A stretch of 64,000 nt of DNA from Microbacteriaceae bacterium (GCA_947373155.1 CANBWO010000004.1:1-64000); one strand, 5' to 3'; positions 47,810-63,968 are shown, counted from the first letter of the stretch. Numbers and translations are program-made. The notes: a model not told the origin generated them from the sequence alone.

Positions 47810-48346
47810 CTAGTCGGCGCTCGCTATGCCCTCAAGGGCAAGTAACCAGCGTTTGGTTGGAATGCCGTCTCCACCCGAATAGCCGGTGATCTTTCCGGAA
47901 GCGCCCATGACTCGATGGCACGGAATCAGTAGGGCAACTGGATTACTGCCTACTGCTCCACCAACTGCGCGCGAGGCCAATGGCTTGCCCAGCGCCTGGG
48001 CGATATTTGCATAGCTAACAGTCTGTCCGTAGGGGATGAGCTTGATTTGATCCCAAACCGCGCGTTGGAAGTCGGTTCCGCCGGTGGTCAGTGGTAAATC
48101 GAAGTCGCGGCGCTCGCCGGATACGTATTCCGTGATTTGGCGAAGGGCAATGCCGACAATGGGCGAGTTGCCGTAATCCGGGGCAACCGGCTGCCCCATG
48201 TGCACATAGACAATGGAATCGTTTTTTACGTAAACAGAGATCGCACCGATTGGTGTGGCAACGTGACCGCAGGAGTCAAAATCGAGATTTAGGTTCATGT
48301 TCAAAAAATACTTTCCGCCACCAACAAAATACCCAGAGGTGGTCAC
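47810..48346 (-). CDS. ogt: Methylated-DNA--protein-cysteine methyltransferase
   Basis: Removes O6-alkyl groups from guanine by transfer to its own cysteine. 178 residues from GTG 48346, which overlaps the P450 stop (GTGA); ATG 48298 (MNLNLDFDSCGHVATP) is a good alternative giving 162 residues. The acceptor site is IPCHRVMGASGKITGYSGG, and the DNA-binding helix contains YGQTVSYANIAQALGKP. An 18-base inverted repeat spans the junction with the P450 gene. Confidence 0.93.
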   Translation of the reverse strand: MTTSGYFVGGGKYFLNMNLNLDFDSCGHVATPIGAISVYVKNDSIVYVHMGQPVAPDYGNSPIVGIALRQITEYVSGERRDFDLPLTTGGTDFQRAVWDQIKLIPYGQTVSYANIAQALGKPLASRAVGGAVGSNPVALLIPCHRVMGASGKITGYSGGDGIPTKRWLLALEGIASAD

Positions 48347-49437
48347 CTCTGTTTAGAACTTGAGGTTACTGTAACTGTGAGGAACTTGGACAGGTAGCGA
48401 ATGTCGCCATCCATGACCCAGTGAATATTTGGTTCCTCCACCAGGTTCCAGCCCGCCCAGGATTCCAACAACACATCCAAAAAGGCGCCAACTTCGTTCT
48501 CGGTCACGTTTCTACCCATGCAGGAATGACGCCCTAGTCCGAAACCAAGATGCGGTGTTCGCCCACGTTGCAAGTCAATCTGATCGGGGTTTGGGAAGGC
48601 AGTTTCATCGTAGTTCGCCGACAAAAAACTCACGTTTACCGCGGCGCCATCGCTGGTTCTAATGCGTTCCATTTTGGGAAGCGGGCTTAGGTACCGAACG
48701 AATTCGCTAATTGCATTCGCGCGTTGGTCTGGGTTGGCCGCGAGGTATTCGCGGTCCTCGGCGGACCGACATAAATGCCACATCAGACCCGTTACCACCT
48801 TGATAACGGTGTCTCTGCCGCCAGCCAGCAGAACGTTGGCAATTCCCTGCATCTCACTTCTGGTTATCACTTGGCCGTCAACCTGAATCTGGCTGACAAA
48901 ATCCCAGATGTCCCCGCCATCGGTGCCATCCACGGCAACAGGATTCGCCTCGGCGGCATCAAAGACGCGGTCTAGGTAGGCCTGCAACTCCGCGCCGGAA
49001 CGGGGGCCTTCAACATGGATGGTCTCGCCCTCGCGATTTTGATATGCTCCTGCGGTCCAGACATCTGGTCCCCAGGAAAGCCATTCTTGAAAGTCTTGCG
49101 GGCGCTTGTAAACGATGGTCAGGCACCCGATCACATAGGGCAGCGCCAGGTCGCGACCGACTTCGAATTCTTTGCGGGCAGCAACATCGCGCAAAAGCAA
49201 AATAGCCAACTCGCGAAACGATGGAGCCAGGCTCGCTAAGTATTCACTGTGGAAATAAGGCTGGGCGGCATCGCGAAAAAGTGTGTGTCTGGGAGGGTCA
49301 ACCTCTAATGGCAGCTGCTTGTAGTCGCGCACATCGCGATCGCCCTGCAGATCGCTCGAATAAGCCGCGTAATCCTTCAGTGCGTTTCTAACCGCAGTGA
49401 AGCCACGGATTTCTGAGTTGTCTACCGGCGCTGGCAT
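48343..49437 (-). CDS. Cytochrome P450, short form, with own redox partners in the operon
   Basis: Heme monooxygenase, 364 residues from ATG 49437. I-helix oxygen-activation motif is LLAGGRDTVIK (about 208-218), K-helix ExxR is EFVRY, and the heme loop is FGLGRHSCMG with the Cys ligand. It starts about 35 residues later than most bacterial P450s, lacking the usual first strand and helix; no better upstream start is visible. Ferredoxin and reductase genes are in the same operon upstream, so it is probably a three-component class I system. The substrate is unknown. Confidence 0.9.
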   Translation of the reverse strand: MPAPVDNSEIRGFTAVRNALKDYAAYSSDLQGDRDVRDYKQLPLEVDPPRHTLFRDAAQPYFHSEYLASLAPSFRELAILLLRDVAARKEFEVGRDLALPYVIGCLTIVYKRPQDFQEWLSWGPDVWTAGAYQNREGETIHVEGPRSGAELQAYLDRVFDAAEANPVAVDGTDGGDIWDFVSQIQVDGQVITRSEMQGIANVLLAGGRDTVIKVVTGLMWHLCRSAEDREYLAANPDQRANAISEFVRYLSPLPKMERIRTSDGAAVNVSFLSANYDETAFPNPDQIDLQRGRTPHLGFGLGRHSCMGRNVTENEVGAFLDVLLESWAGWNLVEEPNIHWVMDGDIRYLSKFLTVTVTSSSKQR

Positions 49438-49464
49438 AGCCTGATTCTATTGCTCGGCGAATGT

Positions 49465-49722
49465 CTAGGACATAGGCTTATTCAAAACCGCAGCGATGGC
49501 CACCTTGGCGCGATGCAGGCGGGTAACCAATTCGGCTTGGCGAATTCCCAGCGCCTGGGAAACATCGCTCATGGTTCGATTCTCAATCAATATGCCTAGA
49601 GCAACGCCTGCCAGGGCAATCGGTAAAGTCTCAATCGCAGCAGCTAGTTGCTCCTTGGTGAAAGAGCTCAAATCCGGAGCGGGCTGGTCTTCGAAACTGA
49701 CATCGAGGTCGAAATCTGACAT
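49465..49722 (-). CDS. Small protein resembling sigma factor region 4 (helix-turn-helix)
   Basis: 85 residues from ATG 49722; the start overlaps the reductase stop (TAATG). Residues about 24-80 follow the region 4 pattern of ECF sigma factors: LPIALAGVALGILIENRTMS then DVSQALGIRQAELVTRLHRA. There is no region 2, so it cannot act as a sigma factor on its own. It might be a DNA-binding regulator or a remnant of a larger sigma gene, but its clean start, stop and operon fit suggest that it is functional. Confidence 0.55.
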   Translation of the reverse strand: MSDFDLDVSFEDQPAPDLSSFTKEQLAAAIETLPIALAGVALGILIENRTMSDVSQALGIRQAELVTRLHRAKVAIAAVLNKPMS

Positions 49723-50963
49723 TACTGGGTGCCTTCCAAGGTGAATACGGATCGGTATTTTTGCACCACGCTGCGAAGTCCAATGCCACAGACCCCCACC
49801 ATTTTGCCCCCGCGGTAATAGCCGAAAACGCAGTCTCCGCTGATCTCACCATCGATGAGTTTTATGTCATCGGCTAAGGCAAGCAATCCGTAGGCCAAGA
49901 TGTGCATTTCGTACTGGTCGCTCCAGAAAGACGGAATCGGAGCGAAACCCTCCGCCAAAACCGCATTAAACGATTCGGAATCGGCCGGCGAACCACCGAT
50001 ACCATCGCCCAGCATGGTTGCAACCACTTTTCCCACGCGCTTTGCCGAGTCGGTTGGAATGTTCCAGTGCTCAACTCGCCGTGGAACTTCGTCGAAGATT
50101 GGATTTACAAATCTGGCCACGTCTCCAATAGCAAAAACGTTGTTCCAAACACCATCGCCGCTTGCCTTCACCGCGCGCAAGGCATCATCGGTTAGCACGC
50201 CCGCAGAAACATCGATGTCATTTCCTTCGAGCCACTCAGTGTTCTCGTGGGAGCCAATTGCCTCCACCAGCACGTCGCAGTCCAGCTCTGTGCCATCGTC
50301 CAGGATTGCGCCCGTTACATGGCTGGTTCCAGCCAGATCAACTATCTTGCGCTTCATAAAGAATTCCACGCCCATGGCCTCGTGGCGTCGTTGCAACTCG
50401 CTGGCCAGCTCAACACCCAACGGTCGAACAATCGGATGTGTTCCCGGACCGATTACCTTTACATCGCAGCCCAATTTTCGGGCGGTAGCGGCTACCTCGC
50501 AGCCGATAAAACCCGAACCCATGATCACAACGCGTGCACCCGGCTGAAGAGAAGCGCGTAGGCCAATCGCGTCGTCGAGTGTGCGAACAGCATGGCGTCC
50601 TGCCAGCATTCCGTTGGGCACCTCTAGTCGCCTCGGCCTGAGCCCAGTAGCCACAATCAAGACGCCGTAGGGGTAAACCTCGCCGTTGGCATCTGTCACG
50701 GTCTGGTGTTCCAGGTCCGCGGCCACAATGCGGGTTCCCAGCACCCAGTTCACGTCTTGTGTGGCGGTGCGTTGTAAAAACGCCACGGCTTCGTGGCTCA
50801 CTTGGGTGGCCAAAACCTCTTTGCTGAGCGGTGGGCGGTTATACGGCGCGTAGGGTTCGTCGCCAATTGCGGTTATGGGCCCAAGGTAGCCAAATCGGCG
50901 CAGTGCCTCGGCGGCCCGCAGGCCACCCATCGATGCGCCAACAATAACTACCGGATGAATCAC
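49722..50963 (-). CDS. FAD-dependent ferredoxin reductase (rhodocoxin/putidaredoxin reductase type)
   Basis: Passes electrons from NAD(P)H to ferredoxin. 413 residues from GTG 50963 with GGCGGGA upstream. FAD motif VIVGASMGGLRAAEALRRFG at the N-terminus, NAD motif VIMGSGFIGCEVAATARKLG at about 148-167, and the second FAD motif VFAIGDVARFVNP. Adjacent ferredoxin and P450 genes define its partners. Confidence 0.93.
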   Translation of the reverse strand: MIHPVVIVGASMGGLRAAEALRRFGYLGPITAIGDEPYAPYNRPPLSKEVLATQVSHEAVAFLQRTATQDVNWVLGTRIVAADLEHQTVTDANGEVYPYGVLIVATGLRPRRLEVPNGMLAGRHAVRTLDDAIGLRASLQPGARVVIMGSGFIGCEVAATARKLGCDVKVIGPGTHPIVRPLGVELASELQRRHEAMGVEFFMKRKIVDLAGTSHVTGAILDDGTELDCDVLVEAIGSHENTEWLEGNDIDVSAGVLTDDALRAVKASGDGVWNNVFAIGDVARFVNPIFDEVPRRVEHWNIPTDSAKRVGKVVATMLGDGIGGSPADSESFNAVLAEGFAPIPSFWSDQYEMHILAYGLLALADDIKLIDGEISGDCVFGYYRGGKMVGVCGIGLRSVVQKYRSVFTLEGTQ

Positions 50964-50993: not shown

Positions 50994-51185
50994 TTAGTCA
51001 ACCAAAAAGATTGCCTGCATAGGGCAGACATCAATAGCGGCCTCAATGTTGCCGCGCTCAGAGTCATCGGCGGTGGCCGTGTACTCAAGTTTGTCATCGC
51101 TGTTTAGACGGAAAATATCCGGCGCCTCAAACACGCACTGGCCGTAGTGCTGGCATTTTTCCATGTCTACATAGATCTTTAGCAT
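50994..51185 (-). CDS. [3Fe-4S] ferredoxin of P450 systems
   Basis: 63 residues from ATG 51185. The motif is CQHYGQC with a later CP, so three cysteine ligands plus a non-cysteine at the fourth place, which is usual for P450-linked [3Fe-4S] ferredoxins. The stop of the upstream gene touches its start (TAAATG). Confidence 0.92.
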   Translation of the reverse strand: MLKIYVDMEKCQHYGQCVFEAPDIFRLNSDDKLEYTATADDSERGNIEAAIDVCPMQAIFLVD

Positions 51186-52061
51186 TTACTTCTCCTCGAC
51201 GGTTGATGGGTAAAGGTCTTTGCTCGGGGTGCGAATTCCGCGGAACTCCCAATCGCCACCTAGCGCTGTGGAAACTACTTCTTCAGACGAAGTCGGTTGG
51301 GCACCCACATCGGTGCGAATCGGGGTAGGGCCTTCGACAATGTGGTTGGTTAGACGACCTAAGCCCTCAACCTCTACCTCAACCACGTCGCCGGGTTGAA
51401 CCGGGCGGCTGAACGCCGGGGTGCCGCTGAACAGCATGTCGCCTGGAACCAAAGTGATGGTGCGGGCGATGTCGGCCACCAGGTAATGCATGTCCCATTC
51501 CATGTTGTCGGTGTTGTCGTCTTGAACAACTTTTCCGTTCACAATGGTCTGGATTCGCTTGTTGCGGAAATCCCAATCGGTGACCATGCCAGGGCCAACC
51601 GGCGCCAGGGTATCTGAGCCCTTAACGCGCAACATGGAACCCGCATCGGTGTCTCTGAAATCATGCAGGCCGTAGTCGTTTCCAACCGTGTAACCAGCGA
51701 TGTACTCGCCGGCTTCCTCTGGGGAAATATTGCGCGCTGTCTTGCCAATGATGATCACAATCTCGCCCTCATAGTTCAGCCACTTGCAGCCGGCTGGGCG
51801 AACCACGGCACCCTTGTGGGTGTTCAAAGCGGTGATTGGCTTGTGAAAGTAGGTAGGTGCCGCCGGCAGCTTGGTCATGAACTCCTGAGTGCGGCTGTCG
51901 TAGTTCAGGTGAACGGCAATGATCTTGGTTGGTTCGCTCGGTGCGAGGTGAACCGCATCATCGATGGCTATAACGCGACCGTCGGGGGCAACCAGGTTTT
52001 CTCCCTGGCGCAATACCTGCACCGGGTAGCCATCAAGCAGAATTCGACGGTATTCAGTCAC
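51186..52061 (-). CDS. Fumarylacetoacetate hydrolase family protein, probable HpaG-type isomerase/decarboxylase
   Basis: 291 residues from GTG 52061, overlapping the dioxygenase stop by eight bases; the longer frame to 52169 runs through that gene. Contains the FAH metal site KWLNYEGEIVIIIGK (ExE), GYTVGNDYGLHDFR, and GDMLFSGTPAF. In the homoprotocatechuate pathway HpaG decarboxylates and isomerises the ring-cleavage acid after HpaE. Context with hpaD and hpaE supports that role; fumarylpyruvate hydrolase is the main alternative. Confidence 0.82.
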   Translation of the reverse strand: MTEYRRILLDGYPVQVLRQGENLVAPDGRVIAIDDAVHLAPSEPTKIIAVHLNYDSRTQEFMTKLPAAPTYFHKPITALNTHKGAVVRPAGCKWLNYEGEIVIIIGKTARNISPEEAGEYIAGYTVGNDYGLHDFRDTDAGSMLRVKGSDTLAPVGPGMVTDWDFRNKRIQTIVNGKVVQDDNTDNMEWDMHYLVADIARTITLVPGDMLFSGTPAFSRPVQPGDVVEVEVEGLGRLTNHIVEGPTPIRTDVGAQPTSSEEVVSTALGGDWEFRGIRTPSKDLYPSTVEEK

Positions 52062-52965
52062 GGGAAAGCACCAGATCCTTAGGCTTTGGGAAACCACCCT
52101 CTGGACGAGGGAAGTAGACGTGCACCTGACCGGTGCCAATCGAGTTTTCGTATTCAGAGTACATAACACCCTTGGCGGTGTTGGCCTCTTCGCCGGTGGC
52201 GCCGGCCATGGCTAGCCAGTGATAGAAATTGGCCTCCGGTTTGACCTTCTTGAACTCTGGCATGTTGTCCAAAATGGCGCCGTGATCGCCAGCCATCATC
52301 CAGTCCAAGACCTGGTAGTCGGCTTCACGCGCCTCGGCGCTAAAGATGTGGCTGGGGTCGCTGGCTTCGTGCTTGCGTAGGTCGCGAAGCTTGTGGAAGG
52401 TGTGACTTAGTGCGCCGGAGGCAAGCAGCAAAACCTTGCTGTCGCTGTCGCGAATGGCCTCGCCAAGGGCTCGTCCGGCACGGATGAAGTCCTCGTGGGT
52501 GCCGGTCTGGCAAACCGACATACTTACCCATTTTTTGTCATCTAGGCCGCGACCCAGATAGTGCCAAAGGTTCACGGTGGCGTAGAAGATTGGCAGGTGC
52601 GGGTCGGCGATGGGGGTAACCCACGTGCCGTTCTTTTCGTCGTAGTTGGCAACTGCCTTAGCCAACTCGGGATTGCCCTTCATGGAATAAGGGATTTGGC
52701 TCATGCCGCGGGGGAGTTCCTCCGAGGTAAATAGGCCCGAACGCTCGGCGGCACTGGTGATCACAAATTCCACGGTGGTAGCCCAGTGGCTGTCGAGGAC
52801 AACCACGGTGTCGTAATCCAGGGTCTCCATTACCTCGGTACGGAAACGCTTTAACCCTGGAACCAGGCTGATTTCTTTGCCCTCGTTTAGGTCGTAACGC
52901 ACCGCCTGCGGGAGCATGATGGTTGGTACGTGAGCCAGGATTGCGGCTCCTACTACTTCGCCCAT
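52054..52965 (-). CDS. hpaD: 3,4-dihydroxyphenylacetate 2,3-dioxygenase (class III, LigB type)
   Basis: Extradiol cleavage of homoprotocatechuate. 303 residues from ATG 52965. It matches the E. coli HpaD/HpcB pattern well: ILAHVPTIML at the N-terminus, VVLDSHWATTVEF, IPYSMKGNPELAKAV and LLLASGALSHTFHKLRD, with the histidines of the iron site. An unusual feature is the clear retention of this ring-cleavage enzyme without hydroxylase HpaBC nearby; the P450 system may supply the catechol. Confidence 0.85.
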   Translation of the reverse strand: MGEVVGAAILAHVPTIMLPQAVRYDLNEGKEISLVPGLKRFRTEVMETLDYDTVVVLDSHWATTVEFVITSAAERSGLFTSEELPRGMSQIPYSMKGNPELAKAVANYDEKNGTWVTPIADPHLPIFYATVNLWHYLGRGLDDKKWVSMSVCQTGTHEDFIRAGRALGEAIRDSDSKVLLLASGALSHTFHKLRDLRKHEASDPSHIFSAEAREADYQVLDWMMAGDHGAILDNMPEFKKVKPEANFYHWLAMAGATGEEANTAKGVMYSEYENSIGTGQVHVYFPRPEGGFPKPKDLVLSRD

Positions 52966-52969: not shown

Positions 52970-54433
52970 TTATTCCTTCCATCCGTTTGGAGAAACCACA
53001 GTGTTTTTTACATCGGCGTAAAAATCGAAACTCCAGGTTCCGCCTTCGCGCCCAACTCCACTCTTTTTGCTACCGCCGAAAGGTGCTTTGAGGTCTCGTA
53101 CAAAGAAGCAGTTGACCCAAATCGTTCCGGCGACGAGATGTTTGGTAATGGCGTCGGCATGGGCTCGATTGCCACTAACCACAACCGCTGCCAGTCCGAA
53201 TTCGGTGCCATTTGCCATGGCAATCGCCTCTTCATCGGTGCTAAAGGTCTGCATTGTCAGAACTGGGCCAAATACTTCCGCGGTCACAATCTCGGATCCT
53301 GGAGCTGGGTTCTTGATCAGGGTTGGGTTGAAGTACAAGCCACCAAGATTGGTATTTGGCGAACCGCCCATGATGATGTTGGCGCCTTCGTCTTTTGCCC
53401 GCTGCACAAAACCACTGATGCGGTCAAAGTGCACCTGGTGAATCTGCGGTCCGATGTCGGTCTCCGGGTCGCGAGGATCGCCCTGTTTGATCTTGGACGC
53501 GCGCTCTATGAACTTGGCGGCGAAGGCATCGGCGATGTCCTCGTGCACCAAAATCCTGGTGCCGGATAGGCAAACCTGACCCGCGTTGTCGTATTGCTCC
53601 ACGGTGAGTTCAGCCGCTAGGTCTAGGTCTGCGTCCGCCAGAACAATGGCGGGGCTCTTGCCGCCAAGCTCGAAGCTGCATGGGGTTAGGTTGTCGGCTG
53701 CGGCATGGGCAATAACCTTGGCCGTTGGAACCGAACCGGTGAATGAGATTCGGGCAATGTCAGGGTGTGCGGTCAGCGCAGCCCCCGCCTCGCGTCCAAA
53801 TCCCTGCACCACGTTGAATACGCCGTTTGGGAGCCCGGCTTGAGTGCAGAGGTCGGCAAAGTAGCTGGCCGAGAGCGGAGTCCATTCCGCTGGCTTTAGC
53901 ACCACGGTATCTCCTGCGGCCAAAGCCGGGCCGATCTTCCAGGTGGCAAGCATGAGGGGAGCGTTCCAGGGGGTGATCAGGGCCGCCACACCCGATGGGT
54001 CCCAAGAAATATTGTTGCTGTGGCCGCGAGTCTCGAATACCTCGTGGTGTAGTTCGTTTATGGCCCAATCGGCAAAAAAGCGCAGGTTGTGAGCCACGCG
54101 CGGCATGACCCCGCGGCGATGCGATCGAAGCAGCGAACCGTTGTCCATGGTTTCAAGGTTTGCCAGGGTTTCAATGTTCGCCTCGACCAAATCTGCGATG
54201 CGGTGCAGGATTTCACCACGACCTTGCGGACCCAACGCGCTCCACTGCGGGAAAGCGGCCTTAGCGGCAGCCACCGCCTGGTCTACCTCTGCCTTGCCAC
54301 CGCGCGCGATTTCGCCCAGAAAAGTGCCATCGATGGGCGAAGTGTTGATGAAAGTTTGCTCGGAGGAGACCCGCGTGCCGTTGATGAAATGGCGGGTATC
54401 GATATCCGCGCCGGCAACGTGAATTGTGGTCAT
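52970..54433 (-). CDS. hpaE: Aldehyde dehydrogenase, probable 5-carboxymethyl-2-hydroxymuconate semialdehyde dehydrogenase
   Basis: 487 residues from ATG 54433. NAD-binding and catalytic motifs: ITPWNAPLMLATWKIGPALA, catalytic Glu in FELGGKSPA, catalytic Cys in NAGQVCLSGTRI. Its position four bases before hpaD supports HpaE, oxidising the ring-cleavage semialdehyde. It could also oxidise an amine-derived aldehyde. First gene of the minus-strand operon that runs through hpaD, hpaG-like, ferredoxin and reductase to the P450. Confidence 0.82.
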   Translation of the reverse strand: MTTIHVAGADIDTRHFINGTRVSSEQTFINTSPIDGTFLGEIARGGKAEVDQAVAAAKAAFPQWSALGPQGRGEILHRIADLVEANIETLANLETMDNGSLLRSHRRGVMPRVAHNLRFFADWAINELHHEVFETRGHSNNISWDPSGVAALITPWNAPLMLATWKIGPALAAGDTVVLKPAEWTPLSASYFADLCTQAGLPNGVFNVVQGFGREAGAALTAHPDIARISFTGSVPTAKVIAHAAADNLTPCSFELGGKSPAIVLADADLDLAAELTVEQYDNAGQVCLSGTRILVHEDIADAFAAKFIERASKIKQGDPRDPETDIGPQIHQVHFDRISGFVQRAKDEGANIIMGGSPNTNLGGLYFNPTLIKNPAPGSEIVTAEVFGPVLTMQTFSTDEEAIAMANGTEFGLAAVVVSGNRAHADAITKHLVAGTIWVNCFFVRDLKAPFGGSKKSGVGREGGTWSFDFYADVKNTVVSPNGWKE

Positions 54434-54564: not shown

Positions 54565-55254
54565 ATGAGCAGACCACGCATTGCGATTTTGAGCCGGCTT
54601 GCCGAGAGCACCTCGGTAACCCGCCACGAGGCAGCTGTGACTGCGCTGCGTTTGGCCGAGGCGGTTTGGGCTGCCGGTGGAGAGCCAATCAGTTTTTTGC
54701 CCGTGGCTAATAGCAACTTGGCAGAGCGCCTAGAGGGAATCCACGGGGTCTTGATGCCAGGTGGCGGCGACGTTAACCCAAGCCGTTACGGCCAGGAACT
54801 TACCACGGCAGCCATCTACGGCGTGAACGATCTGCAGGATCAAACCGACCTAGAAATCTATGAATACGCAAAGCGAGTGGGCTTGCCGCTGCTAGCGATT
54901 TGCCGCGGTCTTCAGGTGGTAAACGTGGCACAGGGTGGAACCCTGGTGCAGGACATGCCGAACCGGCACCAAAATTTTGTGCACAAGATTACTGTGAATG
55001 ACCCATCGGTTCTGGGTATGACTGTTCCAGTTGCAATGGCAAGTTGCTTCCACCATCAATGCATCGATGAATTAGGCGCTGGGTTAACTGTTTTGGCCAC
55101 GGCAGAAGCCGGCCACGTGGAGGCTTTCCAGGTTGAGGCTAAGGCGTGGACCGTGGGGTTGCAGTGGCACCCGGAGGACAACTATCTGGAGTTCCCAGAG
55201 AACTTGAGCATCTTTGAAAAGTTTGTTTCCGAGGCGGCTAAAACTCAGCTATAG
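54565..55254 (+). CDS. Gamma-glutamyl-gamma-aminobutyrate hydrolase family (PuuD-like, peptidase C26)
   Basis: 229 residues from ATG 54565 with GAAAGG upstream. Class I amidotransferase fold: nucleophile Cys in LAICRGLQVVNVAQGG (about 112), His and Glu in LQWHPEDNY. PGGGDVNPSRYG near residue 67 is typical of C26 enzymes. In E. coli PuuD hydrolyses gamma-glutamyl-GABA, the last step of the gamma-glutamyl putrescine route. A glutamine-synthetase-like ligase, permease and aminotransferase nearby complete such a set. Confidence 0.85.
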   Translation: MSRPRIAILSRLAESTSVTRHEAAVTALRLAEAVWAAGGEPISFLPVANSNLAERLEGIHGVLMPGGGDVNPSRYGQELTTAAIYGVNDLQDQTDLEIYEYAKRVGLPLLAICRGLQVVNVAQGGTLVQDMPNRHQNFVHKITVNDPSVLGMTVPVAMASCFHHQCIDELGAGLTVLATAEAGHVEAFQVEAKAWTVGLQWHPEDNYLEFPENLSIFEKFVSEAAKTQL

Positions 55255-56199: not shown

Positions 56200-57447
56200 A
56201 TGTCCCAAATCCAAGACGTGACCCTTGCCGATCTTGACCTTTTTGCCGACGGCGCACCCTGGGTGGTTTTCGATCGACTCCGCGCTGAGGATCCGATTCA
56301 CTGGAACGAAGAAGAAAAGCCCAACTCAGGTTTCTGGTCTGCCACCAAATACCACGACATCGTAAAAATTCTGCGTGACCCAGACACCTTCACTAGCACG
56401 CACTTCACCAATCTGGAAGAAGTGGACGCCGAGCAGGAAGAAGCTCGTCGTTCGCTACTAGAGACCGATGGCTCTCGCCACCGCGCCCTTCGCAGGCTGA
56501 TGCAGGGTGAGTTCACCCCGAGCGCGGTAGCCGGCTACGAAACTTTCTTGCGTGGACTTACCGCAACTACGTTGGACAACGCCTTTGCTAAGGGCACCTT
56601 TGATTTCGTCGAGGAAGTGGCAGCCGATTTCCCTATCCGCGTTTTGGCAAGGATGTTGGATGTTCCAGACACCGACACCGGCAAGCTGATCGACTGGGGT
56701 AACCGCATGATCGGTAACACCGATCCAGAGCACGGCGACATCATGATCGATGACCCAGAGAGCGAAAAGTATCGCTTGGTGCCATTCCGCTCACCGGCTG
56801 CGCTGGAGGTTTTTGAGTATGGTCAGAACTTGGCCAACTCACGCCGCGGCAAAGACGGAAAAGACCTGGTTAGCACCATGGTCAACACCGTTCCAGGCGA
56901 CGGCATCCCGCTAACTGAACGCGACTTCAACACCTACTTCTTGCTTTTGGTGGTAGCCGGAAACGAGACCACGCGTCACACCATCAGCCACACCATGGAC
57001 TACCTGATCAGCAACCCAGATCAGTTGGCTCTGCTGCAAGAGCGACCAGATCTGATTCCTTGGGCGGTAGAAGAGTTCCTTCGCATGGCGAGCCCGGTGT
57101 ATCACTTCCGTCGCACTGCAACCAAGGATGTGGAGTTTGGCGGCAAGCTGATTAAAGCCGGCCAAAAGATTGTCCCTTGGTTTGCCAGCGGAAACCGCGA
57201 TGAAGCAATCTTTGACGATGCCTACAAGATGGATGTGACTCGCAATCCAAACGAACACATGACTTTCGGCCGCGGTGGTCCTCACCTCTGCCTTGGTAAC
57301 TCGCTGGCTCGTCTAGAAATCCGAGTGATGTTTGAAGACCTAATCTCGCGTGTGGACAAGGTGGAAAAGGTTGGCCAAATTGACCACCTTCGATCCAACT
57401 TTGTGAATGGAATCAAGCGATTCCCAGTGAAAGTTACTTTGCGCTAG
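56200..57447 (+). CDS. Cytochrome P450, full length
   Basis: 415 residues from ATG 56200 with GAGGAG upstream. I-helix VVAGNETTRHTISH (about 250), ExxR EEFLRMASPVYHFRR, heme loop FGRGGPHLCLGNSLAR. The GNETTR form and HLCLG ending resemble the CYP125/CYP142/CYP108 group, which act on terpenoid, sterol or alkyl side chains; a specific assignment is not justified. It has no redox partner beside it and may use the ferredoxin of the hpa operon. Ends in a terminator shared with the convergent gene. Confidence 0.92.
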   Translation: MSQIQDVTLADLDLFADGAPWVVFDRLRAEDPIHWNEEEKPNSGFWSATKYHDIVKILRDPDTFTSTHFTNLEEVDAEQEEARRSLLETDGSRHRALRRLMQGEFTPSAVAGYETFLRGLTATTLDNAFAKGTFDFVEEVAADFPIRVLARMLDVPDTDTGKLIDWGNRMIGNTDPEHGDIMIDDPESEKYRLVPFRSPAALEVFEYGQNLANSRRGKDGKDLVSTMVNTVPGDGIPLTERDFNTYFLLLVVAGNETTRHTISHTMDYLISNPDQLALLQERPDLIPWAVEEFLRMASPVYHFRRTATKDVEFGGKLIKAGQKIVPWFASGNRDEAIFDDAYKMDVTRNPNEHMTFGRGGPHLCLGNSLARLEIRVMFEDLISRVDKVEKVGQIDHLRSNFVNGIKRFPVKVTLR

Positions 57448-57509: not shown

Positions 57510-58214
57510 TCAAATGAGCCCAGCAAACTTCAAGAAGTTGTCCACTAGGTCGAAGGTTCGTAAACGAGCAGCTGCCTGCTCGTGACCCGCCTGCCAAAGC
57601 ATGATTTTTGGATCTTGACCATCGCGCTCCACCGCATTCACGCCTTCCCACTCCAGCCAGCCGGCGAGTGTTGCTCCGTCCATCTCAGGGTGAAACTGCA
57701 TAGCCAGCGCCTTGTTAATAACGAAGGCTTGTGAAGCCACCGGGGTACGAGCAATTTCTAGAGCGCCTGCGGGCAGAGTCCACCGGTCATAATGGAACTG
57801 AAACCATGGCCCGCTTCCCACGAAATCCGGCTGCTCGGTAGAAATCCAAGTCCAACCGATTTCGGCCTTCGGACCAGGAGCAACCTGCCCTCCCATGGCG
57901 CGCGCAATCAACTGGCCGCCAAAGCAGATTCCAAAAACCGGCTTGTCGGCCAAAATGGCGTCGCGAATCCATTCCACCTCGGGTACCACCCAGTTGCCAA
58001 TGCATTCGTCATCCCACACGCCCCAGGGCGAACCCATAGGGATAATCAGGTCGTAGTCGGCCGCATCGGGGAAATCAAAGTGCACGTTGGGTGAGTAGTA
58101 GTTCTCCTGAGTTACCACCAGGCGTTCTTCAATCTCAAAACCGTGATGGCGTAGCCGTTCGGAAACCGGGCCGGTGGGGCTCACGTGATCGTGCTGAATG
58201 AAGAGGGCTTTCAT
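57510..58214 (-). CDS. Class I glutamine amidotransferase-like hydrolase
   Basis: 234 residues from ATG 58214 (AAAGG upstream); the frame extends to 58262 without a ribosome site. Cys nucleophile in FGICFGGQLIARAMGG (about 93), His-Glu in MQFHPEMDGATL. No partner synthase is attached. Pairing with a glutamine-synthetase-like gene, which diverges 133 bases away, recalls the aniline pathway, where a ligase makes a gamma-glutamylated amine and an amidotransferase-like enzyme removes the glutamyl group. A second possible substrate is a gamma-glutamyl intermediate of polyamine use. Confidence 0.85.
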   Translation of the reverse strand: MKALFIQHDHVSPTGPVSERLRHHGFEIEERLVVTQENYYSPNVHFDFPDAADYDLIIPMGSPWGVWDDECIGNWVVPEVEWIRDAILADKPVFGICFGGQLIARAMGGQVAPGPKAEIGWTWISTEQPDFVGSGPWFQFHYDRWTLPAGALEIARTPVASQAFVINKALAMQFHPEMDGATLAGWLEWEGVNAVERDGQDPKIMLWQAGHEQAAARLRTFDLVDNFLKFAGLI

Positions 58215-58281
58215 CGGTGCAGGCCTTTCCAAAAAATTCTGCTTGTAACAGTTTGATTTCACAGGGCATTTACTAGTAACC

Positions 58282-58322: not shown

Positions 58323-58347
58323 TTTGAAAACCAACGCGGGAGTTGCA

Positions 58348-59700
58348 ATGAAGCAAGATCTAATAGCACTGAAAGCCGATCTGCAAAGTCGCGGTATCGA
58401 TGTGCTTCGCCTGATTTACGCGGATGTTCTGGGCATCACTCGATCCAAAGACCTGCTGGTGTCTCAGCTCGAGCGCGGAGCTCACAATGGCCCAGCCTTT
58501 TGTCAAGGTGTCTGGGTAACCACCACTCAGGGCGGCGTGCTAGATGCCAACAACATTGCCAGCGATGGCCTCACCGACCTGGTCTCGCAGCTAGATGCCA
58601 ACACCATCACGCCGATGCCGTGGGAGCCGGGCGTTGCATATGTAATCGCCGATGCCTTCAACCCGGATGAGTCGGCCAACCTGATGGCTCCGCGAACCGT
58701 CTTGAAGCACGTGATGGATGAATACGCCAAGCTTGGCCTAGTGCCGGTGGTTGGCCCGGAACTAGAGTTTTACATCGCTGATCGCGTGGAAGGCGGTGGC
58801 TTCAAGCGGTCTTTGGACCTAACCGGACAGGTTTACACCACGGGCGCTCGGGTCGACCCAAAGGGCACCTTCCTAGGCCTCATGCGAGCTCTGGACAAAA
58901 TGGACATTGGCGTTTTTGCTGGCAACCACGAGTTCAGCCCGAGTCAGTACGAAATCAACCTTTGGCACTCCGAGGCCATGGATGCCGCCGACCGCACCTT
59001 CTTGTTCAAGACAGCCATCAAGGACTATGTTTCTCGAACCGGTCAGCACGCTACCTTTTTGGGTAAGCCGTGGTCCGACGAGGGTGGAAGCGGTTTCCAC
59101 CTTCACTTCTCGGTGGTTACGCCCGACGGCACCAATCAAATGCACGATGGCTCGGGAAATCTAAGCCACACCGCCGAACGCATGATTGCGGGAATCACCT
59201 CGCACGCCCACGCCGTTACCGCTTTTAGTAACCCAACGGTTAACGCTTTCAAGCGATTGGGCCCAGATACCCTTGCTCCATACCGAGCAAACTGGGGATT
59301 CGATAACCGTAGCTGCATGGTGCGCATCCCGCCAGAGCGTGGTCAGGGAACTCGTCTCGAGGTTCGTGTGGGCGATGGCGCTGCTAACCCTTATCTGTTG
59401 ATTGCTGCCGTACTGGCCGCTGCGCTGGATGGAATCAGAAACGAACTGCCTTGTCCAGAGCCTGCAGAGGGTATGGCATATGACAACGAAGGCGCAGCTA
59501 TTTTGCCAGCGACTCTCAGTGAGGCGCTTGACAATCTTGACGCCGATCTAACGCTCAAATCGTTGCTAGCCGAGCAAATGGTAAACGTCTTTACGGTTAT
59601 GAAGAGAGACGAAGTTGCTCGTTACGAGGCGGCCGTTGCAGATTCGGGAACCCGCGAGGTAACTCAGTGGGAAATCGACGAGTACCTGGAGAACTACTAG
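58348..59700 (+). CDS. Glutamine synthetase-like gamma-glutamyl amine ligase (PuuA/GlnA3-like)
   Basis: 450 residues from ATG 58348, five bases after GGGAG; TTG 58324 is less likely. The catalytic core is present: GPELEFYI, NHEFSPSQYEINLWHSEA (metal-binding Glu residues), GGSGFHLHFSV (His), and PPERGQGTRLEVRVGDGAAN. The adenylylation-type Tyr loop of true GlnA is not seen. The protein most likely joins glutamate to an amine, as in polyamine, ethanolamine or isopropylamine use. Followed by a strong terminator. Confidence 0.85.
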   Translation: MKQDLIALKADLQSRGIDVLRLIYADVLGITRSKDLLVSQLERGAHNGPAFCQGVWVTTTQGGVLDANNIASDGLTDLVSQLDANTITPMPWEPGVAYVIADAFNPDESANLMAPRTVLKHVMDEYAKLGLVPVVGPELEFYIADRVEGGGFKRSLDLTGQVYTTGARVDPKGTFLGLMRALDKMDIGVFAGNHEFSPSQYEINLWHSEAMDAADRTFLFKTAIKDYVSRTGQHATFLGKPWSDEGGSGFHLHFSVVTPDGTNQMHDGSGNLSHTAERMIAGITSHAHAVTAFSNPTVNAFKRLGPDTLAPYRANWGFDNRSCMVRIPPERGQGTRLEVRVGDGAANPYLLIAAVLAAALDGIRNELPCPEPAEGMAYDNEGAAILPATLSEALDNLDADLTLKSLLAEQMVNVFTVMKRDEVARYEAAVADSGTREVTQWEIDEYLENY

Positions 59701-59897: not shown

Positions 59898-60710
59898 CTA
59901 GACGGCTGGGTTGGAGTTATCCGCAACTAGGGTTCCGCCGTTGAAAGTCACGCCAACTTCTCGGTAATAGCCGCCCAAGATCTGTTGAACGGGTAGCAAA
60001 CTTGCCAGTTCATCCCACTGCGAGTCGGCCAGTTCCAACTCGGCGTCGCCGCCCCAGGCTTGACCCAGGTCCGCATCGGTGCCGCCCATGGTAATCAGCT
60101 GGTCAAGCGAGTTTCCGGCACCCGGGGTAATAGATGGCATCCAGCGACTGTGCAGCATTTTGTGGCCGTTGACAAAACCGTTCTGGTCAACTGGTTCACG
60201 CAGGGTCACCACTGCGGATGCCAAACGGTGATCGTAAGCCGAGAGGCTCGCGCCGAGCTTGGCGCCGGCTTCTAGTTTTGGGGTGGCTTGACCGCGGTTG
60301 AAAATGCGGGTGACGTGTGCCGATCCAAGTTTCTTGGGGTATCCCTGGAACCAGCCGCGGGCAATGGCGAAGTCTTTGGTTACCCAAATGGCAACGCAAC
60401 GGCTGTAAGTCACACCTTGATATTTGCAACGGACCACCACGAACGCTTCTAGGTATTGCGATCGAATCGGATCGAGCAACTCGGCCTTGCTTCCGCTGCA
60501 AGATTGCCAGTCTGCCCAAATGAATGCCACTGCTCCAGGCTGTTCATCGGCTAGTTCCAACTCGGCTGGCAAAATAGCTCGCACGTTGGCCGGATCGGTT
60601 AGGTATTCCACTGTGAGTAGAGTGCCGCTGTAGTACCAGGGCATTTCAGGAATAATCGCGCTTGCGCCACTTGGAGTGCGTGGAGCCATAAAACCTTTAA
60701 GTTCGCTCAT
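59898..60710 (-). CDS. Acetoacetate decarboxylase family protein
   Basis: 270 residues from ATG 60710. The catalytic lysine motif of the family appears as GYPKKLGSA (about 124-132), with Arg-rich VVVRCKYQGVTYSRCVAIWV before it. Many members of this superfamily are not decarboxylases but aldolase-dehydratases or other Schiff-base enzymes. It stands alone on the minus strand, divergent from the permease, and its role in the island is unknown; acting on a keto acid from ring cleavage is a possibility. Confidence 0.8.
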   Translation of the reverse strand: MSELKGFMAPRTPSGASAIIPEMPWYYSGTLLTVEYLTDPANVRAILPAELELADEQPGAVAFIWADWQSCSGSKAELLDPIRSQYLEAFVVVRCKYQGVTYSRCVAIWVTKDFAIARGWFQGYPKKLGSAHVTRIFNRGQATPKLEAGAKLGASLSAYDHRLASAVVTLREPVDQNGFVNGHKMLHSRWMPSITPGAGNSLDQLITMGGTDADLGQAWGGDAELELADSQWDELASLLPVQQILGGYYREVGVTFNGGTLVADNSNPAV

Positions 60711-60899: not shown

Positions 60900-62405
60900 A
60901 TGTCTGATGGCACTAAAACAGATACCTCGCTTGCAAAAGGCAAGCTTGGAGTTCTGGGAATCGTTTTCTTTGTAGTAGCCGCCGCCGCTCCACTCGTTGG
61001 CATGACGGGCGCTGTTCCCGTGGCTATGTTGGCCGGAAACATGGCAGCCGCCCCTGGCGCTTACCTTGCAGTTGGAATCACCCTGCTTATTTTTAGTGTT
61101 GGATTCAGCACAATGAGCAACCAGGTAACCAACGCGGGTGCGTTCTTTGCCTACGTTGGTCGCGGTCTTGGCAAGCACGCAGGTGTTGGCTCGGCGTTCA
61201 TCTCCATTGTGGGATACGTGACCATTCAGCTGGCTATCTACGGCTTCTTTGGTGGTCTGGCAGCTGGTCAGTTCGCCAGCCTCGGTGTAGATCTACCTTG
61301 GTATGTCTGGTGTTTGATCGCTTGGGTGCTGGTTACTGGCCTTTCACTGCTAAGCGTGGATGTGGGTGCCAAGGTGCTTGGAACCCTCATGATTTTGGAA
61401 CTAACCTCTCTGGTGATTACAGGCGTATCGATTCTTGCCAACGGAGGACCTGAAGGGCTCAACTTTGGAGCCTCATTTAGCCTCGAGAACATCTTTGTGG
61501 GTGGCTTCGGTGGCGGCGCCGGTATCGCAATCGCTTTCGCATTCGCATCATTTATCGGCTTCGAAGCAACCGCAATTTACGGCGAGGAATCCAAAGACCC
61601 AAAGCGCACCGTGCCTCGCGCTACCTACTGGGCTATTGGAATCATCACAGCGCTGTTTGCAATGGTTTCGTTCTCCATGGTTACCGGAATGGGTGCTAGC
61701 AAAGTCGCCGACTACATCGTTGCCAACTCGGGTGGCCCAGACGCAATTTTGTCTAACCCAGCAGGCGTGCTGTTCGCTCTTGCGGACCAGTATGTCGGGC
61801 CATGGATGTCTCAGGTAATGAGCTGGTTGGTTATCTCCAGCCTGTTTGCCGGACTTCTGGCATTCCAGAACGCAGCTAGCCGTTACTTCTTTGCCATGGG
61901 TCGAGGCGGCGTTCTACCAGCCTCGTTTGGCAAGGTAAACGGCCGCGGCGCACCTCAGGCCGGTTCAATCCTCACCTCTGTAATCGCCGCACTCGTGATC
62001 ATCGTGTTTGCTGTTGCTGGTCTAGACCCAGTGTTGAATCTGTTCTTCTGGATGTCCGCTGTTACCGCAATCGCCATCATCCTGGTAGAGATTCTGGTGA
62101 GCATCGCAGTGGTTGTCTACTTCATGAAGAACAAGGGCGCCAACGTTTGGCAGGGCAAGGTAGCGCCAATAGCGGCAGCTATTGGGCTCGCTCTGGGTGA
62201 GTACCTTTTGATGAGTCGTTTCAACCTCTTGGCCGGTACAGTTGCCGACGGGGTTGACCCAACCGCACCGGGCAGCGCTTGGCTCATGAGCCCGCTCGGC
62301 TGGGTCTTGGTTCTTTCACCATTTGCTGCGCTTGTTGTGGGCTATGTGCTTTCGATCTTCCAGAAGAACGAAAACGACCAGATGGCCAAGGACATCCTGT
62401 CGTAA
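60900..62405 (+). CDS. APC superfamily amino acid/amine permease
   Basis: 501 residues from ATG 60900 with GAGGAG upstream. Twelve predicted membrane segments. TM1 region VAAAAPLVGMTGAVPVAML has the unwound glycine motif; FIGFEATAIYGEESKDPKRT is the TM6/loop motif of the family. It probably imports the amine or amino acid used by the island, as PuuP does for putrescine; the substrate cannot be read from sequence. Confidence 0.9.
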   Translation: MSDGTKTDTSLAKGKLGVLGIVFFVVAAAAPLVGMTGAVPVAMLAGNMAAAPGAYLAVGITLLIFSVGFSTMSNQVTNAGAFFAYVGRGLGKHAGVGSAFISIVGYVTIQLAIYGFFGGLAAGQFASLGVDLPWYVWCLIAWVLVTGLSLLSVDVGAKVLGTLMILELTSLVITGVSILANGGPEGLNFGASFSLENIFVGGFGGGAGIAIAFAFASFIGFEATAIYGEESKDPKRTVPRATYWAIGIITALFAMVSFSMVTGMGASKVADYIVANSGGPDAILSNPAGVLFALADQYVGPWMSQVMSWLVISSLFAGLLAFQNAASRYFFAMGRGGVLPASFGKVNGRGAPQAGSILTSVIAALVIIVFAVAGLDPVLNLFFWMSAVTAIAIILVEILVSIAVVVYFMKNKGANVWQGKVAPIAAAIGLALGEYLLMSRFNLLAGTVADGVDPTAPGSAWLMSPLGWVLVLSPFAALVVGYVLSIFQKNENDQMAKDILS

Positions 62406-62416
62406 CCAAGAACAAC

Positions 62417-62456
62417 AAAAAAGTTGCCCCCACCAAACGGTGGGGGCAACTTTTTT
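62417..62456. terminator. Bidirectional terminator between permease and aminotransferase
   Basis: An 18-base perfect stem: 62417-62434 with 62439-62456, AAAC loop, A-run on one side and T-run on the other. It serves both convergent genes. Confidence 0.94.
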
Positions 62457-62471
62457 GCCTTGCAAAGATAA

Positions 62472-63968
62472 CTACATCTCGCGGTGAGCCTCAATCAGAC
62501 AACCGCGAAGAATCTGCTCGATCTCGTTGAACTGGTCTGGCCCAATGGTCAACGGTGGAGCCAGCTGAACCACAGGGTCGCCACGGTCGTCGGAACGGCA
62601 GTAGAGGCCCTCTTCGAACATGCGGTGACTCAAAATGCCACGTAGTAGGCGGTCGGCTTCCTTGTCGTTGAAGGTCTCCTTGGTCTGCTTGTTTTTGACA
62701 AGCTCGATTGCCCAGAAATAACCCGCACCGCGAACATCGCCAACAATCGGCAGGTCGCGCAACTTGTCCAAGGTAGCTTTGAAAGCGCCTTCATTGCGGC
62801 GCACATTGCCAACCAGGTCCTCTTCATCAAAGATGTTGAGGTTCTCCAGAGCAACAGCACAACTCACAGGGTGGCCACCGTAGGTGTAACCGTGTGGGAA
62901 TAGGGCACCGTTTTTGAATGGCTCGAACAGTTTCTCGGCTAGCAACAGCGCACCCAATGGGGCGTAGGCGCTAGTAAGACCCTTGGCACAAACCAACATG
63001 TCTGGTTCGATCTCGTAGCGCTCGCTAGCAAACATGGTTCCGGTGCGTCCAAAACCATCGATGGTCTCGTCGGCAATCATCAGCACGTCGTACTTGTCGC
63101 AGATCTCGCGGATTCGCTTGAAGTAACTGTTAGGAGCGGTAAAGCAACCGCCAGAGTTCTGAACCGGTTCAAAGATGAACGCGGCAACAGTGTCTGGGTC
63201 TTCGAACAGAATCATTTCTTCAACGCGGTCTGCTGCCCAGTTGGTGAAGGCTTCCTCGGTCTCGAACTCTTCGGGAGCACGGTACCAGTTGGTGTTAGGC
63301 ACACGGAAGGTGCTTGGTACCAGTGGCTCAAACTGCTTCTTCATGGCCGGAATTCCGGTCATCGAAAGGGCTCCGTGGGAGGTTCCGTGGTAGGCCACGG
63401 CTCGGCTAATTACCTTGTGCTTGGTTGGTTTGCCCATCAGTTTGAAGTACTGCTTGGCTAATTTCCACGCGGTCTCGTTTGCCTCGCCACCACCAGTGGT
63501 GAAAAAGACGCGAGTCAGGTTCTTAGGTGCATACGACAAAACACGTTCACTCAACTCGATTGAAGTTGGGTGGGCGTGCGACCAAATAGGGAAGTAGTCC
63601 AGCTGCTTCATCTGCTTAGCGGCGGCTTCGGCAAGGCGTTCGCGGCCGTGTCCAATGTTTACGCTAAATAGGCTGCTGATTCCGTCAAAGTACTTGTTGC
63701 CATCGATGTCCCAGAAGTGGTGACCCTCGGCCTTAACAATGATTGGAACTTTTCCCTTTGGGAAGTGCGCATGATTGGTGAAGTGCAAGAAGAGGTTGTC
63801 TTTTGCTGCTTTCTCCATCATCGCTGTGGTTACTTCGCGTCCTGCCTTCCGGGCGTCCGCGATTGGGGTGGCGCGGTCTGCTGCTGCGACGGCCGGTTTT
63901 ACCGGAGCCTTGAGCTTGGACGCTAGTCCTCGCACAAGCTTTCCTGCTTGGCTTTCCTTGGTTGCCAT
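62472..63968 (-). CDS. Class III PLP aminotransferase (putrescine/omega-amino acid:pyruvate type)
   Basis: 498 residues from ATG 63968; GTG 63977 adds three residues. A basic Lys/Ala-rich N-terminus of about 45 residues precedes the core. Motifs: FTTGGGEANETAWKLAKQYF, YHGTSHGALSMTGIP, FEPVQNSGGC, Asp in LMIADETIDGFGRTG, PLP lysine in VCAKGLTSAYAPLGALL. It probably moves an amino group from a diamine, gamma-glutamyl amine or omega-amino acid to pyruvate. It is part of the amine set here; the window ends 32 bases upstream. Confidence 0.88.
   Translation of the reverse strand: MATKESQAGKLVRGLASKLKAPVKPAVAAADRATPIADARKAGREVTTAMMEKAAKDNLFLHFTNHAHFPKGKVPIIVKAEGHHFWDIDGNKYFDGISSLFSVNIGHGRERLAEAAAKQMKQLDYFPIWSHAHPTSIELSERVLSYAPKNLTRVFFTTGGGEANETAWKLAKQYFKLMGKPTKHKVISRAVAYHGTSHGALSMTGIPAMKKQFEPLVPSTFRVPNTNWYRAPEEFETEEAFTNWAADRVEEMILFEDPDTVAAFIFEPVQNSGGCFTAPNSYFKRIREICDKYDVLMIADETIDGFGRTGTMFASERYEIEPDMLVCAKGLTSAYAPLGALLLAEKLFEPFKNGALFPHGYTYGGHPVSCAVALENLNIFDEEDLVGNVRRNEGAFKATLDKLRDLPIVGDVRGAGYFWAIELVKNKQTKETFNDKEADRLLRGILSHRMFEEGLYCRSDDRGDPVVQLAPPLTIGPDQFNEIEQILRGCLIEAHREM

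Follow-up and report, generated by a model that had tools for sequence, protein, structure and literature searches.

A conserved actinobacterial gene island predicted to degrade an aromatic 2-phenylethylamine through gamma-glutamylated intermediates

We analysed a 64,000-nucleotide stretch of DNA (the window) from contig C4 of a 1.57 Mb Microbacteriaceae genome, 91% complete, and describe in it a conserved unit of 13 genes (positions 49465-62405). The unit combines a cytochrome P450 (P450b) with its presumed redox partners, ring-cleavage enzymes resembling HpaD, HpaE and HpaG of homoprotocatechuate degradation, a glutamine-synthetase-like (GS-like) ligase and a protein of the acetoacetate decarboxylase (ADC) superfamily. 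We propose that these genes would together degrade an aromatic 2-phenylethylamine, with tyramine the likeliest candidate, along a single pathway whose intermediates would keep a gamma-glutamyl mask until the ring has been opened; we regard this reading as probable, if modestly so. The genes named in the initial annotation of the window were confirmed in place as genuine open reading frames (ORFs) with family matches in Pfam or NCBIfam, with the qualifications that the Hpa proteins are Hpa-like and that a small sigma-region-4-like protein (sig4s) has no Pfam match. The island is more coherent than that annotation held, being one conserved island with one likely pathway.

To assess conservation, named genomes were scanned for relatives of the island; 396 relatives were confirmed and the best 80 kept, mainly from Microbacteriaceae (Rhodoluna, Microcella, Aurantimicrobium, Alpinimonas and Salinibacterium) with one Blastococcus. 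Cultured strains among the carriers include Salinibacterium amurskyense DSM 16400 (L136) and Microcella alkaliphila AC4r (L079). Counts were made in 45 of these 80 loci, those whose flanks measured 8.7 kb or more towards P450/GS and 2.6 kb or more in the opposite direction, the remaining 35 having been dropped beforehand; the 45 loci are related records and not independent events. A gene was called present at an identity of at least 35% (40% for the two flanking genes, a second P450 termed P450a and a class III aminotransferase; 45% for the decarboxylase, PuuC-like and gamma-aminobutyrate (GABA)-transaminase-like queries discussed below, whose counts include each query's own locus). The ferredoxin reductase, HpaG, HpaD, HpaE, HpaR, P450b and GS-like genes were found in all 45 loci, the ferredoxin and the ADC-superfamily gene in 44 each, a class I glutamine amidotransferase-like gene (GAT) in 43, an APC-family permease in 42, a peptidase C26 gene in 26 and sig4s in 25. 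P450a and the aminotransferase were found in none of these 45 loci with sufficient flank, and the island limits of the initial annotation, 48343-63968, are thereby reduced to the 13-gene unit. The link that it drew between a gamma-glutamyl ligase and meta-cleavage genes holds, since the ligase, P450b and HpaD/E/G are joined in 45/45 loci, the opposite of a synteny that would consistently split the two halves. The alternative that the island serves two substrates becomes less likely, as synteny joins the halves.

Within the window's genus (67 genomes with assemblies of 0.8-1.6 Mb; 17 loci fetched, many truncated where a contig ends) the gene order was sig4s-ferredoxin reductase-ferredoxin-hpaG-hpaD-hpaE, then C26, hpaR, P450b, GAT, GS, ADC and APC, with variable outer neighbours. 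Exceptions were locus L034, which lacks a C26 match and has its sig4s match beyond APC, and loci L028 and L032, which lack a sig4s match. HpaD was carried by 30 of the 67 genus genomes, 43 of 349 Microbacteriaceae genomes (11 of 85 genera) and 36 of 396 genomes of the phylum, counts that include the window's own genome. At phylum level, 21 loci were fetched out of the 35 in the phylum set other than the window's own, and genes were counted in stretches of up to 20 kb. HpaD was present in all 21, HpaE in 16, a P450b-like protein in 15 (three at 26-27% identity only), GS in 14, ADC and HpaG in 12 each, APC in 10, HpaR in 8, and C26 and GAT in 4 each; sig4s, P450a and the aminotransferase were found in 0/21. 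Two genomes of about 9-10 Mb from the same class hold the P450, GS, ferredoxin, ferredoxin reductase, ADC, HpaE, HpaD, HpaG, APC, a PuuC-like dehydrogenase and C26 inside 20 kb. The order of the genes varies between groups and the set itself recurs; the chief argument for a single pathway lies in this recurrence. With the two halves joined by synteny in this way, one pathway appears likelier than two.

Gene content, synteny, conserved residues, fold class and the lack of an HpaB match across the genus are observed; each reaction, the substrate and the order of steps are inferred as follows. The APC permease would take up the amine, and the GS-like ligase would convert tyramine to gamma-glutamyl-tyramine. 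P450b, with the ferredoxin and the reductase, would hydroxylate the ring to give gamma-glutamyl-dopamine, which the HpaD-like dioxygenase would open with the tag still attached. The HpaE-like dehydrogenase would oxidise the semialdehyde, and the HpaG-like protein would isomerise and decarboxylate the product to a 2-oxo-3-enoate. The ADC-superfamily protein would then hydrate and cleave this compound, reversing the aldolase-dehydratase reaction of its relatives, to yield pyruvate and gamma-glutamyl-4-aminobutyraldehyde, the latter an intermediate of the Puu route for putrescine. A PuuC-like aldehyde dehydrogenase would form gamma-glutamyl-GABA, and the C26 hydrolase would release glutamate and GABA.

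The scheme builds on the conventional route, in which homoprotocatechuate is converted to pyruvate and succinic semialdehyde by a dioxygenase, a dehydrogenase, isomerases, a decarboxylase, a hydratase and an aldolase (PMC12718150). The acetate side chain of homoprotocatechuate would end as the carboxyl end of succinic semialdehyde; with CH2-CH2-NH-gamma-Glu as the ring side chain, the same steps would end in pyruvate and gamma-glutamyl-4-aminobutyraldehyde. Such a scheme would explain jointly why the block has a ligase and a C26 hydrolase and no amine oxidase, and why some relatives carry a PuuC-like dehydrogenase. The cleavage product of L-3,4-dihydroxyphenylalanine (L-DOPA) formed by L-DOPA 2,3-dioxygenase cyclises on its free amine (PMC12311729), and the tag may have its purpose here, because a masked amine would keep the ring-cleavage product from cyclising. 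A tag kept through ring cleavage would give all the genes one outlet. Neither this persistence of the tag nor the likely replacement of HpaH and HpaI by the ADC-like protein was part of the initial annotation; an aromatic monoamine such as tyramine, which it named as substrate, is supported as far as sequence goes.

Table 1. Genes of the island and its two immediate neighbours, with positions in the window
Feature	Position	Strand	Evidence
Short P450a, neighbour	48343..49437	-	0/45 named loci
Sigma-region-4-like helix-turn-helix protein, 85 aa (sig4s)	49465..49722	-	last gene of the hpaEDG-ferredoxin-ferredoxin reductase run
FAD/NAD(P) ferredoxin reductase, presumed P450 redox partner	49722..50963	-	Pyr_redox_2 184 bits; 45/45 loci
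Ferredoxin, 63 aa, three cysteines	50994..51185	-	Fer4_15 43 bits; 44/45 loci
HpaG-like FAA-family isomerase/decarboxylase	51186..52061	-	FAA_hydrolase 183 bits; the longest ORF starts at 52169
HpaD-like class III extradiol dioxygenase	52054..52965	-	LigB 87 bits; TIGR02298 127.5 bits
HpaE-like semialdehyde dehydrogenase	52970..54433	-	TIGR02299 518 bits
Peptidase C26 / PuuD-like gamma-glutamyl hydrolase	54565..55254	+	Peptidase_C26 144 bits; PuuD model 67.3 bits
MarR regulator, HpaR-like	55498..56001	-	TIGR02337 64.5 bits
Cytochrome P450b, presumed ring hydroxylase	56200..57447	+	p450 77 bits; 45/45 loci
Class I glutamine amidotransferase-like (GAT), possible second gamma-glutamyl hydrolase	57510..58262	-	GATase 42.5 bits; 43/45 loci
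GS-like ligase, presumed gamma-glutamyl aryl-alkylamine synthetase	58324..59700	+	Gln-synt_C 304 bits
ADC-superfamily protein, presumed hydratase / retro-aldolase	59898..60710	-	PF06314 197 bits; 44/45 loci
APC-family amine/amino acid permease	60900..62405	+	AA_permease 92 bits; 42/45 loci
Class III aminotransferase (PRK06541 family), neighbour	62472..63977	-	709 bits (cut-off 574); 0/45 loci

The ADC-superfamily protein was compared with structures by sequence profile and by predicted fold. A profile search of the PDB matched MppR and a Streptomyces bingchenggensis protein (E 2e-46 to 3e-46) and Swit_4259 (1e-22), and nothing else at E up to 0.01. The predicted model (predicted local distance difference test (pLDDT) 83.0; predicted template-modelling score 0.84) aligned to MppR with Z 32.5 over 253 residues at 2.5 A, to the aldolase-dehydratase entry 6eej with Z 32.0, to the S. 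bingchenggensis entry 4zbo with 31.9 and to Swit_4259 with 29.7, against 26.7, 26.1, 25.2 and 20.9 for other entries titled acetoacetate decarboxylase. By predicted fold and profile the protein is thus nearer the MppR, S. bingchenggensis and Swit proteins than the decarboxylases. An acetoacetate decarboxylase proper was rejected for this gene, as the NCBIfam model gave 39 of 150 bits and the fold is nearer the aldolase-dehydratases. Lys126 aligns with Lys156 of MppR, which we take to be the Schiff-base lysine, and stays unchanged across 14 sequences, the most distant at 34% identity; given that role, the protein carries the Schiff-base lysine of the group. The score against the MppR equivalog model, 174.5 bits, lies below its cut-off of 380. 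Titles of the PDB entries matched by fold mention pyruvate Schiff-base and condensation complexes. A cleavage step has precedent as a proposal, since ADC-superfamily proteins of the archaeon Saccharolobus have been proposed as aldolases in phenol meta-cleavage (PMC7820114). Replacement of HpaH and HpaI by the ADC-like protein is likely; neither the HpaH hydratase nor the HpaI aldolase is encoded in the 13-gene block.

We refer to HpaD, HpaE, HpaG and HpaR as "-like" because all four score under the curated cut-offs (127.5 of 315.95 bits, 518 of 638.35, 194.7 of 276.4 and 64.5 of 121, respectively). The Hpa model was the best NCBIfam model for the HpaD-, HpaE- and HpaR-like proteins and the second best for the HpaG-like protein (HpaG-C-term). 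The start of hpaG is probably near 52061 rather than 52169, judging from five genus relatives with ORFs of 291-292 aa; where HpaG was found in the phylum set, identity was 65-78% in 10 of the 12 carrying loci and 33% and 51% in the other two. In the HpaD-like protein, His12, His60, Tyr128, His188 and Glu244 are invariant across 15 diverse copies. These residues correspond to the 2-His-1-Glu iron site with second-sphere Tyr and His of class III (LigB-type) dioxygenases, as in PMC5291488; Glu244 aligns with the ligand Glu251 of aminophenol dioxygenase, although against 8iq8 it is displaced by one column.

The absence of HpaBC from the window, noted initially, extends beyond it: HpaB_N (PF11794, an N-terminal Pfam family and the one searched) had no match in the own genome and in 0/67 genus genomes, with a control positive in 6 of 14 genomes including E. 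coli. The suggestion that a P450 takes the place of HpaBC was upheld in part, in that as far as sequence goes a replacement fits the lack of HpaB in 67 genomes, and the P450 concerned is not the operon-borne P450a proposed at first but the conserved P450b. By gene content the island has the make-up of a three-component P450 system (P450b and reductase in 45/45 loci, ferredoxin in 44/45) with predicted electron transfer. The cysteine pattern of the ferredoxin is kept in 15 genus copies. The best PDB sequence match of P450b was CYP125MRCA (416 bits), followed by CYP268, CYP124 and CYP125 at 256-271 bits. In the Blastococcus locus (L145, 1-10000) there are three P450b-like matches (64%, 52% and 34% identity), perhaps for extra hydroxylation; within the stretch retrieved, ADC had no match.

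In the GS-like ligase, Cys60 aligns with the Asp of the GS motif MFDGSS, which we take to be Asp50' in the description of glutamyl organic amide synthetases; Cys60 is invariant in 16 genus copies and nearly so in 12 diverse copies. Given that correspondence, the ligase has a GS fold from which the ammonium-site Asp50' has been lost. Loss of this catalytic or ammonium-site residue is what marks glutamyl organic amide synthetases in PMC11335346. A second criterion for these synthetases is loss of the Glu-flap glutamate, numbered Glu357 in PMC11335346, to which the Glu of the GS motif YEAP may or may not correspond; the YEAP Glu aligns with Leu317, and the Glu of RLEVR is kept as Glu346. Amine specificity is not readable from the Cys60 alignment, and neither NCBIfam models nor a PDB profile resolved the subfamily. 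The PuuA model gave 234.5 of 650 bits and the PuuD model 67.3 of 266 bits (the latter for the C26 hydrolase), both under the equivalog cut-off. No amine oxidase is among the 13 island proteins, the set in which the PuuB flavin family was sought.

Clues to the substrate come from genes that accompany the island in other genomes. In some clusters a group II pyridoxal-phosphate-dependent decarboxylase is embedded on the same strand: in 13 loci (L134-L140 and L203-L208, of which L206 and L207 share a genome) it is separated from P450b by 12-102 bp, and five loci from another class (L186, L191, L193, L194 and L196) place it 48-75 bp from hpaR. Elsewhere it is farther off or on the opposite strand. 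Loci L200-L210 were drawn on solely for gene maps and for placing the decarboxylase. Genome G401 has two island copies with a decarboxylase (L206 and L207). In the phylum set, the decarboxylase query matched in 9/21 loci (29-34% identity) and the PuuC query in 9/21 (five at 51-60%, four at 36-37%). PuuC was the best NCBIfam model for the in-cluster aldehyde dehydrogenase of three distant loci (557-575 bits, cut-off 850) and for that of L143 (533 bits), the protein to which the five phylum matches at 51-60% refer. An aldehyde dehydrogenase adjoins sig4s in three genus loci (L033, L037 and L041), and class III aminotransferases adjoin HpaD in several loci.

Several observations weigh against the tyramine pathway as proposed. 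Accompanying genes are infrequent among the 45 named loci (decarboxylase in 11, PuuC-like dehydrogenase at 45% identity or more in 5, GABA-transaminase-like gene in 2), C26 was not found in 19 of them, and C26 and GAT were both not found in L112 and L138. The ferredoxin and its reductase occur in just 2/21 phylum loci. Copper amine oxidase matched in 0/67 genus genomes, an absence that is weak given a control positive in only 1 of 14 genomes, E. coli not among them. The genome also encodes one HpcH/HpaI-family (PF03328) protein outside the island, leaving room for a conventional HpaI, and a second FAA-family (PF01557) protein whose best model is HpaG-C-term (168 of 276 bits), leaving room for HpaH; by reading, the gene for the latter adjoins an ilvE-like gene. 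The substrate of the decarboxylase is not established, its PDB relatives being DOPA, aromatic amino acid, desferrioxamine-type and diaminobutyrate-type enzymes at similar scores; its best NCBIfam model is diaminobutyrate decarboxylase, far under the cut-off, and the name of its best PDB match (4obu) gives no substrate. In the genus the decarboxylase hardly tracks the island (28 of 30 genomes with it and 28 of 37 without, by eye), and the own genome has no match to it at 1e-25. The nine aldehyde dehydrogenases of the own genome reach at most 42% identity, over part of their length, to the in-cluster PuuC-like proteins. With no decarboxylase of its own and no close PuuC-like protein, this organism must therefore import the amine and use another dehydrogenase; the candidate may be the enzyme encoded 0.6 kb beyond the window (C4:64639-66075), which scores 673 against a cut-off of 615 for aminobutyraldehyde dehydrogenase and to which the sig4s-adjacent copy in L037 is 70% identical. 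Also unfavourable are L181, where the dehydrogenase beside HpaD has lactaldehyde dehydrogenase as its best model and the aminotransferase has another aminotransferase model first and GABA transaminase third; the GABA-transaminase query, named by reading, which matched in 6/21 phylum loci at only 37-41%; and the L112 flank, where a methylmalonate-semialdehyde-type dehydrogenase (679 over 448 bits) fits beta-alanine better.

We weighed this pathway against other explanations. The tag might be removed before ring cleavage, with the ligase and P450 acting on the gamma-glutamyl amine, a hydrolase freeing dopamine or another catechol and HpaD/E/G acting on the free compound. Degradation of aniline and 1-naphthylamine is opened by GS-like ligases (PMC11335346) and the block has two hydrolase-like genes, both points in favour of such a route; but the free L-DOPA cleavage product cyclises on its amine (PMC12311729), the block has no amine oxidase to make homoprotocatechuate first, and the PuuC-like dehydrogenase of related clusters is best explained by a late gamma-glutamyl aldehyde, so that we consider early removal unlikely. 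The same ligase precedent (PMC11335346) speaks for a ring-bound amine such as 4-aminophenylacetate, which would be gamma-glutamylated and its nitrogen replaced by the P450 to give homoprotocatechuate for ordinary HpaD/E/G degradation. That would leave the decarboxylase and the PuuC-like dehydrogenase unexplained, and HpaD, HpaE and HpaG all fall under the cut-offs of homoprotocatechuate enzymes; we judge it very unlikely. A substrate of the benzylamine type, whose side chain has one carbon, would follow the masked route just described and end as gamma-glutamyl-beta-alanine instead of gamma-glutamyl-GABA. It would suit L112, where a methylmalonate-semialdehyde-type dehydrogenase and a class III aminotransferase lie next to the island. 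Against it, the in-cluster dehydrogenases of four scanned loci have PuuC as their top model, which indicates a product of four carbons, and decarboxylation of tyrosine or DOPA would leave a two-carbon side chain; we give this version an equally low probability.

Two independent modules could lie side by side, one for homoprotocatechuate degradation (P450 and HpaD/E/G) and one for gamma-glutamyl polyamine or GABA metabolism (ligase, hydrolases and permease), as might be suggested by the polyamine/GABA-like gene set that adjoins, outside the window, in this genome. Yet P450b, GS and HpaD/E/G occur together in all the named loci counted and in other orders in other classes, the block has no Puu-type amine oxidase and the neighbouring aminotransferase does not travel with the island (0/45); this arrangement is quite unlikely. 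The island might finally be biosynthetic, with a gamma-glutamylated catechol turned into a small secondary metabolite in the manner of L-DOPA dioxygenase in lincomycin-type pathways. According to PDB entry titles MppR, to which the ADC-like protein is related, has a biosynthetic role, and L-DOPA 2,3-dioxygenase is biosynthetic too (PMC12311729); on the other side, the HpaE-, HpaG- and C26-type genes with the permease and the HpaR-like regulator form a degradative sequence, and the block sits in a genus of such small assemblies. We hold biosynthesis to be extremely improbable.

Neighbouring genes and the smaller members of the block were examined as well. P450a was ruled out as the pathway hydroxylase: it belongs to a separate short-P450 family, is found in none of the 45 loci and is adjacent to the island only here and in genome G044. 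In nine further genus genomes that have both genes at length, P450a is on another contig than HpaD. Across the genus, long matches (at least 43% identity) occur in 21 genomes besides this one, most of them on contigs that lack HpaD. By reading, this protein of 364 aa apparently lacks the N-terminal part of other P450s. The aminotransferase was likewise ruled out as an island member by its absence from the named loci, contrary to the initial annotation, and probably belongs to the polyamine/GABA-like set just beyond the window. There, translations of C4 at about 64.0-73.0 kb (L024, 4005-12983) read as an Lrp-type regulator, the aminobutyraldehyde dehydrogenase, an FtsK/SpoIIIE-like ATPase, and genes like those of a polyamine ABC transporter and a GABA transaminase.

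We liken sig4s to sigma region 4 from a reading of its sequence and from a weak match in fold. Its AlphaFold model (mean pLDDT 83.9) has four helices; in Foldseek nothing matched at 0.001, and KorA and sigma region 4 came up weakly, at E 0.02 for the best. Identity is 52-69% in 13 genus copies, and the protein is possibly a small co-regulator. Stretches matching sig4s lie beyond APC in several Microcella-type loci. Elsewhere in the window, two sigma-factor-like genes (44411-44890 and 46743-47255) were read from translations of the minus strand at 42951-47255. After each comes a gene whose larger product contains a hydrophobic stretch, and the region looks like two extracytoplasmic function sigma/partner pairs. 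Luciferase-like monooxygenases adjoin two distant clusters (L191, 6328-7677; L195, 11976-12980).

More generally, we tentatively suggest, with a little less than even confidence, an actinobacterial route for aromatic ethylamines in which a gamma-glutamyl amide would persist through hydroxylation, extradiol cleavage and decarboxylation, the side chain would leave as gamma-glutamyl-GABA, and one ADC-superfamily enzyme would serve as both hydratase and aldolase. Tyramine or phenethylamine would thereby yield pyruvate, GABA and recycled glutamate without an amine oxidase, an arylacetaldehyde or a free catecholamine. The elements are known ones, recombined in one island. If the proposal is right, a recurring and loosely annotated gene set of freshwater and marine actinobacteria (GS-like, ADC-like, HpaD/E/G-like and P450) would be one biogenic-amine pathway; the tag would have a chemical reason, the prevention of cyclisation of the ring-cleavage product; the little-understood ADC superfamily would gain a degradative role; and the substrate range of gamma-glutamylating ligases would extend to aryl-ethylamines. 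A literature search over titles and abstract openings returned no description of the island; most subscription papers were outside its coverage, so that it is no proof of novelty. The main text of PMC12422013, on the Luna-1 cluster, has no occurrence of the words aromatic, P450, putrescine, tyramine or polyamine.

Among known systems, the island resembles the Hpa/Hpc pathway in having HpaD-, HpaE-, HpaG- and HpaR-like proteins in the expected order of chemistry. It differs in that HpaBC, HpaH and HpaI are missing from the block, in that the four Hpa-like proteins stay under their cut-offs, and in the addition of the P450 system, the gamma-glutamyl ligase and the ADC-like protein. With the Puu pathway (PuuA, B, C and D) it shares a GS-like ligase and a C26 hydrolase and, in some related clusters, a PuuC-like dehydrogenase, whereas the block has no amine oxidase, PuuA and PuuD models score far under cut-off and aromatic ring enzymes are inserted. 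The gamma-glutamylation of aniline and 1-naphthylamine (TdnQ, AtdA1 and NpaA1) likewise uses a ligase without the ammonium-site Asp on an aromatic amine, and these clusters also contain an amidotransferase-like gene. The aniline oxygenase is a Rieske dioxygenase; the island oxygenase, in contrast, is a P450, its proposed substrate is a side-chain amine, and its tag is proposed to persist through ring cleavage. The ADC aldolase-dehydratases MppR, the S. bingchenggensis protein and Swit_4259 share with the island protein the fold (Z 29.7-32.5), the sequence profile and the lysine at the position of MppR Lys156. In structure alignments the island protein is 31-34% identical to MppR and the S. bingchenggensis protein and 24% to Swit_4259, and, unlike them, it is proposed to act in the cleavage direction, within a ring-degradation operon.

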